IMG/VR virus record: IMGVR_UViG_3300011113_000717
Coordinates: 1 to 63,431 of that record
Reading direction: 5' to 3' (one strand)
DNA length: 63,431 bases
Source: a virus
The first letter of the stretch is position 1, and the number at the start of each line of letters is the position of its first letter. Below the pieces are notes generated by a model. That model ran no database searches, was not told the DNA's origin, and saw nothing but the letters and a program-made list of their open reading frames with translations. Below are positions 45,442 to 61,953 of the stretch, one piece after another. A program made the translations under genes and the position numbers.

Positions 45442-47850
45442 CTACTTCTTCAAGAAACCAAGTTCATACACCAATGGTCTCATTCTATCTTCAAGGTTCT
45501 TATACAACTTACGGAACTCTTTGAAATCTTCTTGAAAATATTCTTTCCAAACTAATTTGAGTTGAGCATATCCTGCGTCCCACGAGTTAAGGTGGTTTTC
45601 TTCGTTTGCCATAACTTGACGAAGTTCCATAGATTTCTCAACAAGTTCTGTAGCTTTATCCAAAACTAATTTTGCATCAGGAGAAAGTTTACCATAAATT
45701 CTTTCTTCACCAAATAGAAGTTTGTGAACATAACGATTGGGAGATGTTCTCGCGTCGTTGTAAAGTTCATCATATCCGTTTTGGTCCGCAAGTTCTTTCA
45801 TCTTGTCCACCGACATCCAAAAAAACTCATTTTTGACATCCCATAACTTTTCTTTATATTCTACCCCCCGAAGTGAAGACTGTTGTGAGGAATTATTGAA
45901 CAATGAATAAACTAAAGAATCATATTTGAAAGAAACCCTCTCGAAGTTTTCATTCGGTTCAAAATATTCGTCTTTTTGATTGTACCAAGTGGGATTAATT
46001 ACTTTCCTCGCAGTGAATGTTGAAATCACATTGAAGAAATTATCGGACTTAATAGGATAAGATCTGTTATTTCCACTCATCATTTTGGTAGACCCAATAA
46101 AAACTTCTCTTGTATTGAAATAAGTGTTATTTCCTGAATTCAAAAACTCTCCAATCGAGTTCTCTTCACGATAGTTTTCATAATCTTTTATTGAAAATGC
46201 TGAAGTAAGGGTCAATGTCTCAATTTTGGGAGATTTAATTTTCGTTTTAGTCCATTCTTTTAATGAGTGTTTTTTCGAGTGGGGATAAATAACTTTATCA
46301 TCAATAGATATAATTTCTAAACTTTCATTCAATTCTAATACTTCGAACAATAATTGATTATCGTTCTTGGTATTTTTCCAAACACTGAACGAAAGGCCCC
46401 ATTCTGAAACATCATCGAAGTTTTTAGCATTCATTATAAAACCTTTTTCAAACTGAAAATTTTGATAAAAATGTTCCCTAAATAAAGAATAATCCGAACC
46501 CGACATGAAAAGCATGGGGCTAAACGTACATATATTTATTTTGCAGTTAAAACTTGAAAGTCGATACATGAACTGAGTAAACATATTTTTTTGAGATTTA
46601 CCCAATTTCACATCAATCATTTCTTTATGAACCTTAGAAACTTCATTTTTTTTAACTTTTTTTTCTTCAGACTTTATATTTCTCAAATCATTCTCAGTAC
46701 CATAAGGAGGATTCATTAATACAATAATATCTTTACCACTTCCTATCGCGTTTCTCAATCCGATAGGAAGTTTTTCATAATCATCATTCAAGAAATCATA
46801 TTGAAACTTAACCGCTTCATTATTATATCCCATCTGATTTGCAGTATCAATATCAGATTGATTCAAAGTTGAAACATAAAGTTCTTTGAACTTGAAGTCA
46901 CGGGTAAGATTACCTGTTCCCCAAGCTGGATCCCATACCACATATTTCTCTTTCCAATCCTCACCGAATACTGACGCGACATACTCATGGGCTTTATCCA
47001 CCCAAATTGCAGGTGTGAAGAACTCACCTTGTTTACGACGAGTAGTATCTTCGACAATACGATCAACCACCGCCGCCAACTTATGCTTCTGTGATGGTGT
47101 ATAAGATGATGAGAAGTGACCGAAAAACGATTCAAAAGCATCTCTCGATACAATGGATAGTTCACCAAAAGATTTGGTTACAACGGTCTTTCTTTTAGTT
47201 ACAGGATGAAGATAGTTGTCATCTTTGTTTACCAAGATTTGGACGAATAGATTAGCTCTTTCGTTCGTAGTCAATTTGTTTTTACCCAATACTTTCTCAT
47301 CAAAGTAACGAAATACCTCAGTGATATTTTTATCAGTAACAAGAACTCTTCGTTGAACATTATCGGTCAAGTCTTTAACTTTTTGAACACATTCCATAAA
47401 GTCGTCAGAACTGTAAACAAATGGTCTGATTGACTCATCTTTCATCATTGCCAAAACTAATTCAGCAATGTTATGAGCAGAGGAAGGTGCGGTATTCCAA
47501 TTCAAGTCCATTTCGAGATACTTGATTACATCATTAACGTGTAACGTGAGGCATTCATTTCTATCCCCAATGAAAATTGTGGTAGGTGGAATAATTCCCT
47601 TGTCATAAAAACGCTTGATATAAAACACAGATTGAGCAAGAACCTTCACCAAATCTGACTTATTAGAAAGATTGATGTCATCCTTGTACTCCATGAGAAC
47701 TCTTACCTTATCAGATTTTGAAACACCAAACCCATCACAACCAAAGGGTGACGTGATTTCCATGTCCTTAAATCTTTTAAGGAAGTAGTGACGGTAGGAG
47801 TTTTCAACATCCTTCTCATTGTAGGCAATATTCAGATTATTTGTCATCAT
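45442..47850 (-). CDS. Nuclease-methyltransferase, Type IIG-like (N6-adenine)
   Basis: 802 residues. The N-terminal about 250 contain D-G-F-G-V then VRVLMEYKDDI (ExK) and KVLAQSVFYIKRF, like the PD-(D/E)xK domain of single-chain restriction enzymes. The centre has WDPAWGTGNLTRDF (AdoMet motif I) and MNPPYGT (catalytic NPPY, N6-adenine). The C-terminal 350 residues could recognise DNA. It may cut host or rival DNA and protect its own, or act only as a methylase. The start is one of two adjacent ATGs. Stands alone between two terminators. Confidence 0.75.
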   Translation of the reverse strand: MMTNNLNIAYNEKDVENSYRHYFLKRFKDMEITSPFGCDGFGVSKSDKVRVLMEYKDDINLSNKSDLVKVLAQSVFYIKRFYDKGIIPPTTIFIGDRNECLTLHVNDVIKYLEMDLNWNTAPSSAHNIAELVLAMMKDESIRPFVYSSDDFMECVQKVKDLTDNVQRRVLVTDKNITEVFRYFDEKVLGKNKLTTNERANLFVQILVNKDDNYLHPVTKRKTVVTKSFGELSIVSRDAFESFFGHFSSSYTPSQKHKLAAVVDRIVEDTTRRKQGEFFTPAIWVDKAHEYVASVFGEDWKEKYVVWDPAWGTGNLTRDFKFKELYVSTLNQSDIDTANQMGYNNEAVKFQYDFLNDDYEKLPIGLRNAIGSGKDIIVLMNPPYGTENDLRNIKSEEKKVKKNEVSKVHKEMIDVKLGKSQKNMFTQFMYRLSSFNCKINICTFSPMLFMSGSDYSLFREHFYQNFQFEKGFIMNAKNFDDVSEWGLSFSVWKNTKNDNQLLFEVLELNESLEIISIDDKVIYPHSKKHSLKEWTKTKIKSPKIETLTLTSAFSIKDYENYREENSIGEFLNSGNNTYFNTREVFIGSTKMMSGNNRSYPIKSDNFFNVISTFTARKVINPTWYNQKDEYFEPNENFERVSFKYDSLVYSLFNNSSQQSSLRGVEYKEKLWDVKNEFFWMSVDKMKELADQNGYDELYNDARTSPNRYVHKLLFGEERIYGKLSPDAKLVLDKATELVEKSMELRQVMANEENHLNSWDAGYAQLKLVWKEYFQEDFKEFRKLYKNLEDRMRPLVYELGFLKK

Positions 47851-57241: not shown

Positions 57242-59428
57242 TTAAAAATCTAACTTCACTACAAATTGTTGTATACCCTGTCTCAATTCAGGGGATTGTA
57301 GCTTAGATATAACAATAAGATCTTTATTCTGATCGTAAAGTCCAATTTCAGTAATATATGATTTTGTACCAGCAGACCACGTAGGATTTGAAGTGTTTGT
57401 AAATTGATTTCTATTCAAGTTTATCAAATACTTCATTTCATAAATGGTTGCAGAAATGTCAGTTTCAAAATTACCGTAAAAATAATACTCGTCTCCGAAG
57501 TTCAATATATCAGACTGACCATTCAATGGAATGTCCAAATAATTCTGTAGTTGGTACGCCGCGGCTCCGTTGTAATCATCAGGTCCTATTTGGAATGTAG
57601 TTCCTGTCAAAGATGCTTGAGTGATGTAACCATTAGATAGAGTCATTGCTGATGTTACATCTATTTGTCTCCAAGCAGTTGGTGAAGGTCTTGTATCACC
57701 CGTAACCATTTGACAAATAATTTTCATGGAAGTGGCAGTGTATCCTGTAAATTGATTAACTCCCAAGAATCCAAACTCTCCTCCGAATCTGACCGCCACA
57801 TTTTGAGTATTCGCAGTGACCGAACTCGTAGGTTGTACTACAGAATAGTAATTGCAGTGGAGAGAACTTGTGACACCAGATTCTGACTCGAACAAATAAC
57901 TCACCCAAAATCTCTGAGTTGGATTGGTCATCAGTCCTGCTGAGTTATTTCCTGTATCACAAATGTTTGGTGTTAACAAACTTAATTTAGGTGCAGGTAA
58001 CGTAAAGTTCCTGTTTGATTTATAGGATAACGCAGCAATTACTTCTTCATCATCAACCACAATAATTTCTTGGTCAGGAAATACTTTACCAATTCTGTTC
58101 AAGTTACCATTACTATCAGCATTAGTATCCCATAAATGATAATATCGAATACCAGGGTCGTTCATATCCAAGTTTTTAGTCGACTTAATGTAAAATGGTT
58201 TACACAAGTCATACCCTGGAGGATCTATATAGAAAGTTTGTCCGATGGTTGTTCCTGTTGATTTGTGCCACATCAAAGTCGGCATACTCAATTTGAAGTG
58301 TCTTGCTAATCCAATATCATTTGTCGGATTTTGCGGGTCGAATGGTTGCGTTGAGAATTTCTCCCCATATATATGGTCAATATCTTGATTGGTGTAATGG
58401 ATAATCGCAATGGCTTTTTGGTCCTGAGGTCTAACAATTACTTTCTCATCAAACGAATTATAATAAAACACTTGACTCGTATCAGTTTGTCCTGATGACT
58501 GATTATATCCCAAATATTCTTTGGTACCTATATATGATACCGAACCAAACTTGGTATAGTCTTCATATGTACTACTGAATAATCCAGCAGGACTCTCAGT
58601 CCAAGGAATATTCATGTTCCAAATGGGTGTATTCTCTCTGTTGCTCACATCACAAGGAGACTCAAAGTTGAGGGTATCTGTTTGCCAATAAGGTGCTGGA
58701 GTCACAAAGTCATATAACTCTGTCATACCTGATGGATAAACATACAATCTAGCATAGTTACTATCGACTGGTAGAAAATCGAAAGTAGGTAAAGCTCTAT
58801 CTAATGTCAAGGTGAATGTAGTACCTGTCGTTCCCGTAGCAGGACTCATATTTTGAATCTTATATGTTAGAATTTGGTTTGTAGTGAAGTCTCCACATCC
58901 ACCATTCCCATCATATACTAAGGTCACAAAATCATTAATCGATGGAGTACCCGATGAAATACAACTTGTTGGTGAACTATCAAATTCGATTTGCATGGAA
59001 GTCTGTCCCGATAAACTTGACATATCAACCCAATAACTTGAAGTCATTGTGTATGCCGAACTTGTTTGTATTTGAGTCACTCCCGTTGTAAAAAACCCTT
59101 TCACTCCCGCAGAATTGTAAACCTGTGTAAAGTTACTATCCATAAATGGAATTCCATAAGTGTTACCTGATGAACTTTGTACGTAGTACGGATACTTTAT
59201 ATTTTGTTTGTTTGATTGTGGTGAACCTGTATCATTTTGTGCGTTGAACGCTGGCATCAAAATATTATTATTCGTTTGATTATAGTTCGGTACTGCAGTA
59301 TAACTTACCTCACTATCTCCGATTTGGAAATAAGAAATGTTGAAGTTACCTTGTGAAAGGTTTCTACGTCCAACATCAGTAAGTCTGGTGTTAATTAGTC
59401 CTGCAGTATTTTTAATAATATAAGCCAT
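57242..59428 (-). CDS. Tail or baseplate-associated structural protein
   Basis: 728 residues. The N-terminus NTAGLINTRLTDVGRRNLSQ followed by GNFNISYFQIGDSEV is typical of phage tail/baseplate or fibre-attachment proteins. The body is Ser/Thr/Asn/Gly-rich beta structure with few charged residues, as in virion proteins. It ends GIQQFVVKLDF. Transcribed from its own TATTTAT element. Exact role (baseplate wedge, fibre base) is not clear. Confidence 0.7.
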   Translation of the reverse strand: MAYIIKNTAGLINTRLTDVGRRNLSQGNFNISYFQIGDSEVSYTAVPNYNQTNNNILMPAFNAQNDTGSPQSNKQNIKYPYYVQSSSGNTYGIPFMDSNFTQVYNSAGVKGFFTTGVTQIQTSSAYTMTSSYWVDMSSLSGQTSMQIEFDSSPTSCISSGTPSINDFVTLVYDGNGGCGDFTTNQILTYKIQNMSPATGTTGTTFTLTLDRALPTFDFLPVDSNYARLYVYPSGMTELYDFVTPAPYWQTDTLNFESPCDVSNRENTPIWNMNIPWTESPAGLFSSTYEDYTKFGSVSYIGTKEYLGYNQSSGQTDTSQVFYYNSFDEKVIVRPQDQKAIAIIHYTNQDIDHIYGEKFSTQPFDPQNPTNDIGLARHFKLSMPTLMWHKSTGTTIGQTFYIDPPGYDLCKPFYIKSTKNLDMNDPGIRYYHLWDTNADSNGNLNRIGKVFPDQEIIVVDDEEVIAALSYKSNRNFTLPAPKLSLLTPNICDTGNNSAGLMTNPTQRFWVSYLFESESGVTSSLHCNYYSVVQPTSSVTANTQNVAVRFGGEFGFLGVNQFTGYTATSMKIICQMVTGDTRPSPTAWRQIDVTSAMTLSNGYITQASLTGTTFQIGPDDYNGAAAYQLQNYLDIPLNGQSDILNFGDEYYFYGNFETDISATIYEMKYLINLNRNQFTNTSNPTWSAGTKSYITEIGLYDQNKDLIVISKLQSPELRQGIQQFVVKLDF

Positions 59429-59454: not shown

Positions 59455-61953
59455 TTATGCTATCGGTCCGAAATCACAATTTACCACAACAGTTACACAA
59501 GTAACGTTAGATATGTTATTTGCGTCTCTTAAACCTAAATAAACCGTTCCGCTAGGTACGTAAAGATAATCTCTAGTATTTCCTTCAACAAAACTGAATG
59601 ATCCATTCAACGCGTCATTACAAGTTAGGTAATATGTATCAGTCATCTCATACTGACCCGACCCACCAGCAAGACCAGTAACAAATACCGAGTTGATACC
59701 CTCAAATCCACAAAGTACATTAGCCGTTGCAACTAATGGTTTGGATGGAACATTACCCGTCGAACTGAAGGTTACACTATTATTATTGATAGTATTCGAG
59801 GTTGTATCAGAAATAACTCTACAACATCTACACCCGTTGATACTTGCTTGAGTAAACTGAGCGGTGATTTGTTGTTGAAGGTTAGTCAAACAATTGCTCT
59901 GAGCTCCCGCCTGTCCGTTTGTTATGGACAACACTGACGTATTTGTTATGAGTACAGGAGAGTTCAACCCAATCTGTAGTTGATATGTATCCGCTTCAGT
60001 CACTGCAGTGAATGTTTCAGGGCTACAATTAGGTCTTCCACCAGTCTGAACTATTGTCTGAGTTGTTGTTGGAGTTTTGGTTACTCCGTTCTCAGTAATG
60101 GAGAAAGTATCTGTAATTAATCCTGTACCAGGTCCATTATAAGTTTTAATTGATGATATGGTCAGATTGAAAGGTATAGTGACACCTGGTGGTAGTGGAG
60201 GAGTACTCACAATCTGATAATAAGTTGTATTAGAATTGTAATTACTCAAACTAATATTCTGAGTCGCTAAAGTATTTGCACTCAAGGACAATTGATAAGT
60301 CACAGGTTGTTGGTTGAATCCAACTGTAATAGTTTCTGTGTCTGTATTTCCAGCAGAATCTCTTAGGGTTATGGTATATGAACCAGAACACAAATTTTCA
60401 AAAACATTTGTTGTTTGGTAAGTGGAACCTCCGTTAATTGAGTATAGATATGGAGGGTATCCGTATTGAGCGGTGACAGTGATATCTCCATCACAGTTAG
60501 CAGTACTATTACATGAGTTATTATTTGCCGATAATCTTGCTTGAACTGGTATAACCGCTGGACAAACACCTTGAGTCATAGTTACACTATACATATTTAC
60601 TCCGCCAGCAATGACCCATCCTGAAAGTGGAATCGAAGCCGAAGATGTACTAATGAATATACCCCCACCAACAGGGTTGAAAGGTATTGTAGGATTCGAT
60701 CCAGTAACTTCCCATCTTCCTACAGTTGAGTTCCAAACAATATTGTATTGACCGTCCGCTGTTGTCCAAGTAGTTCGACCATTTCTCATTCCATTACAGC
60801 TGAACTGTAATGGACCATAAGCAGTTGACGTACCAATTGCAATCAAACACAACTGAGGACAAACTCCTGATGGTGTTACTGTTGGTGTCACAGTTGGGCT
60901 TGGTGTGATACTTGGTGTAGGTGGGAACAGACTACAAACAGTGCTCGCGGTATAGTCCCCATAGAAGTCGACAACAGTGACTTGATAATTGCCCTGAGGT
61001 ATTCCCACCAAAGTTTGAGTTCTCTGTCCTCCTTCCCAGTAAATAGAATAAGGACTTGTCCCCCCAGTAATTTTCAAAGATAAAATCCCATCTAAAGAAC
61101 TTGTAGAACTCGGTATTGATATTGGAAAACAAGTTACTCCCATGTCAAATAGAGTGAAGACATCACAATTATTCTTTAATGAAAAAACTTGACTGTTTGT
61201 TGGCGTTTGTGTAGGTGTTTTGGTGATTGACGGAGTTGAAGAAGTTGTAGGAGTTACGGTCGGAGTTATAGTATTCGTAGGTGTTAACGATGGAGTTTGT
61301 GTTGGCGTTGGAGTTGGACAACTTACTGAGGAGCTCACATTCAATTTTACAACACCGTTTGATGGCTTAGTATAATCCATGGTTATGGATAATCCACTTT
61401 GATTTCCTTGCTGGAAATTCCCACAACAGTCGGTATAAAAATAAGTGCTACCAGGATTTACCGAAGTAAAAGCTTGCCCACATAAAATTGGTGTTGGAGA
61501 AGGAGTTGCATTCGGAGTCCTTGTTTGAGTTGGAGTTGTTGTTGGTGACGAGGTAATCGATGGTGTTGGTCTCGGTGTTCGGGTAGGAGTTATTGTTGCG
61601 GTTTGACTTGGAGTATTTGTAGGAGTTAGAGTTGGAGTTGTTGATGGTTCAGGAGAAACTGCAGGATAACAACTGTTATTATCCGTACAAATATTTTCAG
61701 TATCAATTGTGATAATCCCTTCAGGTAAAATTGTATCTCCGAAAAACCCATATTTGAAATTTGGAGTATTCCCTAAGAAAGAGCACACATAAAATACTAA
61801 AGAACTCCCTGATACTATACTTGGTAAAGTTCCTGTATTAGCGTTTTGTTCATTACCATCACAATCGGTGTAAACAATGTATAATTGTTCTCCTCCACTC
61901 GTTAGTAAGTCGAATGGTACTTCAATATAGACACAGGAACAAGGTGATGACAT
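59455..61953 (-). CDS. Tail-fibre-like protein with Pro/Thr stalks and SprB-like repeats
   Basis: 832 residues. Pro/Thr-rich stalks at about residues 98-158, 208-251 and 343-364 (TPTQTPSLTPTNT type) separate beta domains. Two domains resemble SprB repeats of gliding-bacteria adhesins: ITGGTSPYSIYWEGG (about 271-341) and QYGYPPYLYSINGG with a GSYTITLRDSAGN end (about 469-541). Others are immunoglobulin-like. N-terminal CSCVYIEVPFDLL has no signal. It probably contacts the host surface; the repeats may be borrowed from host adhesins. Confidence 0.75.
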   Translation of the reverse strand: MSSPCSCVYIEVPFDLLTSGGEQLYIVYTDCDGNEQNANTGTLPSIVSGSSLVFYVCSFLGNTPNFKYGFFGDTILPEGIITIDTENICTDNNSCYPAVSPEPSTTPTLTPTNTPSQTATITPTRTPRPTPSITSSPTTTPTQTRTPNATPSPTPILCGQAFTSVNPGSTYFYTDCCGNFQQGNQSGLSITMDYTKPSNGVVKLNVSSSVSCPTPTPTQTPSLTPTNTITPTVTPTTSSTPSITKTPTQTPTNSQVFSLKNNCDVFTLFDMGVTCFPISIPSSTSSLDGILSLKITGGTSPYSIYWEGGQRTQTLVGIPQGNYQVTVVDFYGDYTASTVCSLFPPTPSITPSPTVTPTVTPSGVCPQLCLIAIGTSTAYGPLQFSCNGMRNGRTTWTTADGQYNIVWNSTVGRWEVTGSNPTIPFNPVGGGIFISTSSASIPLSGWVIAGGVNMYSVTMTQGVCPAVIPVQARLSANNNSCNSTANCDGDITVTAQYGYPPYLYSINGGSTYQTTNVFENLCSGSYTITLRDSAGNTDTETITVGFNQQPVTYQLSLSANTLATQNISLSNYNSNTTYYQIVSTPPLPPGVTIPFNLTISSIKTYNGPGTGLITDTFSITENGVTKTPTTTQTIVQTGGRPNCSPETFTAVTEADTYQLQIGLNSPVLITNTSVLSITNGQAGAQSNCLTNLQQQITAQFTQASINGCRCCRVISDTTSNTINNNSVTFSSTGNVPSKPLVATANVLCGFEGINSVFVTGLAGGSGQYEMTDTYYLTCNDALNGSFSFVEGNTRDYLYVPSGTVYLGLRDANNISNVTCVTVVVNCDFGPIA

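Follow-up and report, generated by a model that had tools for sequence, protein, structure and literature searches.

What are domains resembling the SprB repeats of gliding adhesins doing in a phage? The question arises from a viral contig of 63,431 nt, classed as linear in its IMG/VR record, which we analysed over its full length and call the window. One of its genes encodes a protein of 832 residues. The first-pass annotation saw in it a fibre with two domains like the SprB repeats found in surface adhesins of Flavobacteria. Our answer, to which we give a probability of roughly two in three, is that the protein sits on the surface of the virion of a large contractile-tailed phage, probably one of Bacteroidota, where it would form a fibre, a whisker or a decoration on the tail, and that its Ig-like beads come from the pool of domains of its hosts.

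Architecture of the 832-residue protein

The reading frame runs on the minus strand from an ATG at 61953 to a stop codon at 59455. It is a real gene, since dN/dS lies well below 1 in every part when it is compared with five close relatives (L003, L004, L005, L007 and L009). Its parts and its two neighbours are listed in table 1, in which the limits of N, Y, M, C and T are our own and follow the alignment and the model.

Table 1. Features of the 832-residue protein and of the adjoining genes. Positions are those of the window; residues are those of the 832-residue protein.
Feature	Residues	Position	Strand	Evidence
Multi-domain beads-on-stalk protein, 832 aa (probable virion fibre or whisker)		59455..61953	−	ORF, selection, model
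Domain N, variable N-terminal bead, close relatives only	1–96	61666..61953	−	HMM
Pro/Thr stalk 1	97–156	61486..61665	−	composition; pLDDT < 50 at 99–154
Domain Y, small β domain	157–212	61318..61485	−	HMM; β strands in model
Pro/Thr stalk 2	213–256	61186..61317	−	composition; pLDDT < 50 at 214–267
SprB-A, SprB-repeat-like Ig domain	262–342	60928..61170	−	PF13573, cellular SprB profile, fold
Pro/Thr stalk 3	343–363	60865..60927	−	composition; pLDDT < 50 at 347–363
Domain M, β domain	364–466	60556..60864	−	HMM, model
SprB-B, second SprB-repeat-like domain	469–546	60316..60549	−	PF13573, cellular SprB profile
Region C, all-β, probably two domains	547–735	59749..60315	−	HMM, model
Domain T, variable C-terminal all-β bead	736–832	59458..59748	−	HMM, model
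728-aa gene, conserved partner directly downstream (26-bp gap)		57242..59428	−	relatives in IMG/VR
Neighbouring Pro/Thr-stalk protein, cut by contig end		62143..63431	−	phrog_15511 match

In the AlphaFold2 model of the whole protein (mean pLDDT 78.3) the segments of pLDDT below 50 coincide with the stretches that are rich in Pro and Thr by composition (residues 103–157, 213–256 and 344–362). Ig-like β-sandwich beads were found in the models (pLDDT 78 and 85), with matches of the Ig, FN3 and PKD types; the matches of domain T were fibronectin-III-like, at Z about 7. We picture the protein as a string of small β-sandwich beads on flexible Pro/Thr stalks. The stalks set apart N, Y, SprB-A and the remainder of the chain, but M, SprB-B, C and T are contiguous, so the annotated image of beads parted by stalks is apt for the first three beads and not for the last four.

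Structural matches of the whole model to Ig, FN3 and integrin β-sandwich proteins were generic and tied in score, and we drew no identity from them; Hoc of RB49 (3shs) was among the structural matches. So was GhpA, the grappling-hook protein of Aureispira (structure ranks 7, 9 and 10; Z 7.0), but sequence searches did not return it and we infer no kinship from it.

How evenly are the beads conserved? By HMM, SprB-A occurs in 101 viral proteins and SprB-B in 103 (counts that include multi-repeat proteins), against 13 for N (13 domains) and 14 for T; Y, M and region C were matched in 39, 58 and 53. Against the same five relatives dN/dS was 0.03–0.08 for SprB-A, 0.06–0.09 for M, 0.02–0.11 for Y and 0.06–0.13 for C; it was 0.15–0.23 for SprB-B, 0.15–0.31 for N and 0.16–0.33 for T. 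These values are rough, dS being near saturation. SprB-A is among the most conserved beads and the termini vary, as would be expected if a conserved core that includes the SprB beads carried exchangeable ends. Since SprB-A is conserved while the ends vary, the comparison speaks against SprB-A as a fast-evolving specificity tip; a conserved ligand would be compatible with it.

The order of the core beads, Y-A-M-B-C, is kept among relatives. In five of them (L030, L040, L050, L057 and L078) the fibre gene is split, with A in one gene and B (or M-B) plus C in another; the 832-residue protein may therefore be a fusion of genes that are separate in some relatives.

Kinship of the two SprB-like beads

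Are these beads SprB repeats? The Pfam family is PF13573, with a curated cut-off of 28 bits. Searching with it, as the annotation had proposed, gave a divided result. The 832-residue protein stayed below the cut-off, at 13.4 bits as a whole (E 0.061), 17.7 for SprB-A alone (E 0.0028) and 19.1 for SprB-B alone (E 0.001), but frames of direct orthologs in G003/G004 and G002 exceeded it, the 958-aa one at 31.8 bits and the 984-aa one at 30.2 bits. Despite these sub-cut-off scores PF13573 was the best-scoring Pfam family for both beads.

The alignment of the family (A1) comprises 33 relatives, chosen by hand from a set of neighbours and from L090. PF13573 matched 21 of the 34 whole proteins at E ≤ 0.1 (best 6e-13). 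The domain alignments keep 33 members (A3, excluding L077, whose aligned piece is not the domain) and 30 members (A4, excluding L030, L050, L072 and L077). At this level too PF13573 was the most frequent and best-scoring family, matching domain A in 31 of its 33 members and domain B in 28 of 30. The runners-up were Big_3_5 and BiPBP_C for A (3 of 33) and Big_13 for B (6 of 30). Weak matches to BiPBP_C, Big_9, Big_13 and similar families score below SprB and were rejected.

A second line of evidence is a profile of 43 repeats located by PF13573 in 12 Bacteroidota genomes (97 positions) and not selected by likeness to the phage. It scored 69.0 bits with the 832-residue protein, 35.1 with SprB-A and 43.5 with SprB-B. 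Of 2000 block-shuffled copies 985 returned a score, the highest for any domain being 10.1 bits, and no other ORF of the window matched at E ≤ 1. This profile replaced an earlier one, made from cellular repeats that had been picked because they resembled domain A, whose E of 1.5e-22 was partly circular. By sequence, then, beads A and B are of the SprB-repeat type, as the annotation had said, and that identity is better supported than Pfam alone suggests. They share with the repeats of type IX-secreted Bacteroidota surface proteins the core GGTxPYxxxW ... GxYxVxVxD and the length class. Cellular repeats, however, form a long tandem array, whereas the phage protein has two single beads among other domains, both below the Pfam cut-off.

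If the beads are SprB repeats, are they not Ig-like domains as well? The model of SprB-A (88 aa, pLDDT 85.4) is an Ig-type β-sandwich. Against the PDB all its Foldseek E values exceeded 0.001, and Z was at most 7.4, with tied scores and no specific winner. A PDB search with the single sequence of the SprB-A region gave nothing better than E 0.22, but the profile of domain A matched the gp24 neck whisker (E 2.4e-6, 30.4 bits) and an entry that reads 'Decoration protein', which we take to be of the T5 type (E 1.2e-5, 28.2 bits); the sequence matches include 5lxk, 8zvi and 9occ. The two descriptions are not mutually exclusive, because the beads are Ig-like folds that match T5-type decoration and neck-whisker Ig domains. 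Like these proteins and Hoc, the phage protein would carry Ig-like beads on the virion.

These matches bring in a different origin, in which the beads are ordinary phage Ig-like domains of the Hoc or T5-decoration type that merely resemble SprB, with no borrowing from a host. The generic fold of SprB-A, with its tied Z values below 8, suits that origin, as does the second SprB-repeat protein described below. Cellular SprB repeats nevertheless match domain A more strongly than phage Ig domains do. The best reached 55.8 bits with its profile, and 722 of 1100 cellular domains exceeded the 30.4 bits of gp24, in a comparison that somewhat favours the cellular side, these domains coming from loci found by likeness to domain A. 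A better score for generic Ig-like repeats, the outcome that the annotation had set against its own claim, did not occur either: Ig-type Pfam families were fewer and weaker, and never beat SprB for either bead. A FastTree phylogeny was built from 352 repeats, aligned in 77 columns. In it 32 of 33 A domains formed one group (weak support, 0.41) and all 30 B domains fell in a group of their own with two others (good support, 0.92). The nearest neighbours outside these groups were, at weak support, cellular in 8 of the 8 listed for A and 7 of the 8 listed for B. We consider a purely phage ancestry unlikely. Part of the likeness may nonetheless come from old phage Ig ancestry, because similar Ig domains occur in phages of other hosts.

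In G001–G007 most of the strong PF13573 matches lie in a second protein, of 711–870 aa. Its copy at L096:6540-8675 scored 79.9 bits with PF13573 over five stretches and also matched 'Hoc-like head decoration' and 'virion structural protein'; others are at L091:5126-7261, L092:3630-5768, L093:4710-7310, L094:17105-19240 and L095:5519-7651. These copies measure about 711 aa, except that the L093 one bears a stalk and reaches 866 aa, and by the independent profile they have six or seven repeats. The protein has five to seven overall; it adjoins conserved genes of 302 and 985–995 aa. Among all the viral proteins collected, 24 have four to seven repeats by that profile. Phages matched by the ~711-aa protein were Klebsiella phages and related ones in 38 of 39 records, at about 33% identity to Hoc-like proteins, and an uncultured 642-kb phage in the remaining one. 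Some features listed for the Klebsiella-type records are named Hoc-like, whisker or tail protein.

Origin, host and genomic setting

From where would the beads have been recruited? When 84,980 species genomes were scanned with the A alignment, the best 80 of 427 confirmed loci were all Bacteroidota by title. Of 198 Bacteroidota genomes, 44 contained PF13573 matches above the cut-off; among 14 control genomes the model matched none at E ≤ 0.01 and 10 at a loose E ≤ 10. The name 'gliding adhesin' is thus too specific for a repeat widespread in Bacteroidota surface proteins. SprB itself is needed if Flavobacterium johnsoniae is to move normally, an extract of PMC11205867 states. An extract of a study of Bacteroidetes toxins describes gene neighbourhoods in which SprB and type IX tails abound (PMC7073777). 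Because the relatives among those best loci are Bacteroidota only, recruitment from the surface-protein pool of this phylum is the likeliest origin, and the borrowing that the annotation proposed is likely, with the reserve that the tree imposes for A.

Is the whole protein an adhesin of this kind? All three high-scoring cellular proteins that were scanned combine SprB repeats with CHU_C or Por_Secre_tail, the tails of type IX secretion, whereas CHU_C, Por_Secre_tail, TIGR04131 and TIGR04183 were absent from the family matches of the 34 phage members at E ≤ 0.1. In this feature the phage protein departs from the cellular ones. Its cellular homologues are type IX-secreted surface proteins, so one might imagine it exported to the surface of the infected cell, there to act as an adhesin like SprB, instead of being borne by the virion. 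But no hydrophobic N-terminal signal was seen by eye, the tail families are missing, and the gene sits amid structural and stalk genes; we regard such display as very improbable.

What does that neighbourhood contain? The 832-residue protein itself matches the PHROGs family phrog_26672, 'virion structural protein' (E 1.7e-4), and its upstream neighbour has two copies of a domain of about 110 aa related to phrog_15511 (E 1.1e-12). The 728-aa partner matched no convincing protein family; its relatives are encoded in 492 IMG/VR stretches. Eighty loci were considered, seven with too little upstream sequence; the other 73 fall into 42 clusters at 95% identity. In 71 of these 73 both SprB-type beads are encoded upstream of the 728-aa gene on the same strand, and in 64 of the 71 the spacing is 11–42 bp. 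Among 50,697 named phage records, tblastn found no relative of either protein, and the window had no DNA-level relative among named phage records. Elsewhere in the window, an 802-aa protein (45442-47850, minus strand) lacked both a PHROGs match at E ≤ 0.001 and a relative among named phages.

The largest relatives measure 295–326 kb. A tail-sheath match was found in all five that were searched (one over the cut-off) and PF13573 matches in all eight that were searched (seven over it). The host is probably a member of the Bacteroidota, a reading that follows mainly from the kinship of the domains. Bacteroidota rarely use the Shine–Dalgarno motif, and such motifs precede 3 of 61 genes, against 1.5 expected from shuffles; this scarcity agrees with the proposed host. 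The Bacteroidota −7 promoter motif, TAnnTTTG, was not enriched in the window (92 seen, 91.5 expected). We presume a freshwater origin for the group from the usual sample type of such records.

Precedents and possible roles

If the beads are of cellular type, do phages offer a precedent? The closest one studied is that of the BACON repeats of crAss-like phages, which we take to be tandem arrays without Pro/Thr stalks. They too represent a Bacteroidota surface-protein domain in tail-associated phage proteins, for which an extract of PMC6949934 proposes horizontal transfer and suggests a role in host binding. They differ in belonging to another domain family and to gut phages, not to ~300-kb freshwater phages. 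Other gut phages, whose predicted hosts are also Bacteroidota, have modular adhesins with BACON, PKD and Ig beads, but these bind epithelia, and SprB goes unmentioned in the paper (PMC13370021). SprB repeats in phages were previously known as a database label: the structural matches of the model in BFVD include, at ranks 1, 2 and 12, A0A6J5LDA4, A0A6J5LD72 and A0A6J5MUM3, which UniProt calls 'SprB repeat [uncultured Caudovirales phage]', and no functional study of them was found in the literature searched. Nor did the titles and abstract openings of the PMC papers surveyed yield one that treats SprB repeats in phage proteins. The present case extends the BACON theme: the domain is here a different Bacteroidota repeat, and a very common one, and its bearers are ~300-kb freshwater phages that have no relative of the 832-residue protein among the named phages searched.

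What might the beads do? On the reading that we prefer, a virion surface protein with beads recruited from the host pool, the two SprB-type Ig domains belong, by sequence, fold and distribution, to the set from which Bacteroidota build their type IX-secreted surface proteins. The conserved core Y-A-M-B-C may space out the fibre and perhaps adhere weakly. Specificity would come from the exchangeable beads at the two termini and from the stalk proteins encoded nearby.

The annotation went further, suggesting that the beads share a polysaccharide ligand with the host adhesins or else imitate the surface of the host; either would make them a means of host recognition. Homology to cellular SprB at 69.0 bits is compatible with this, an extract of PMC13288928 names SprB and RemA as possible phage receptors in Bacteroidota, and host binding has been suggested for BACON. 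Yet the literature surveyed names no ligand of the SprB repeat, SprB-A is strongly constrained where the termini vary, the repeats are possibly mere spacers, and at least one BACON domain that was assayed bound nothing, according to an extract of PMC9853417. The proposal is accordingly unsupported, and we hold it to be distinctly improbable.

A bolder scheme can be drawn, for which the odds seem to us poorer still. Both virion proteins, the Y-A-M-B-C fibre and the array of five to seven repeats, might be built from type IX adhesin repeats of the host, with SprB-A making the contact that host adhesins make with the matrix or with each other. A virion would then attach first to the moving coat of adhesins on gliding cells, or to the slime that they share, and the choice of host would fall afterwards to a variable tip. 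Whatever its function, SprB-A offers a conserved single-domain handle for asking if phages exploit host adhesin chemistry, and its sequence may help to flag phages of Bacteroidota in metagenomic data.

The islands of stalk proteins in the relatives hold other components. Their proteins (for example L003:3331-4755) bear other tips, namely DUF5122 β-propellers, Fib_succ_major and DUF285. A sulfotransferase (PF13469, E 9.8e-15) and FkbM methyltransferases (PF05050) also lie within these islands (L094:7188-8009, L024:1929-2780 and L054:774-1616), where they might modify sugars or the stalks.
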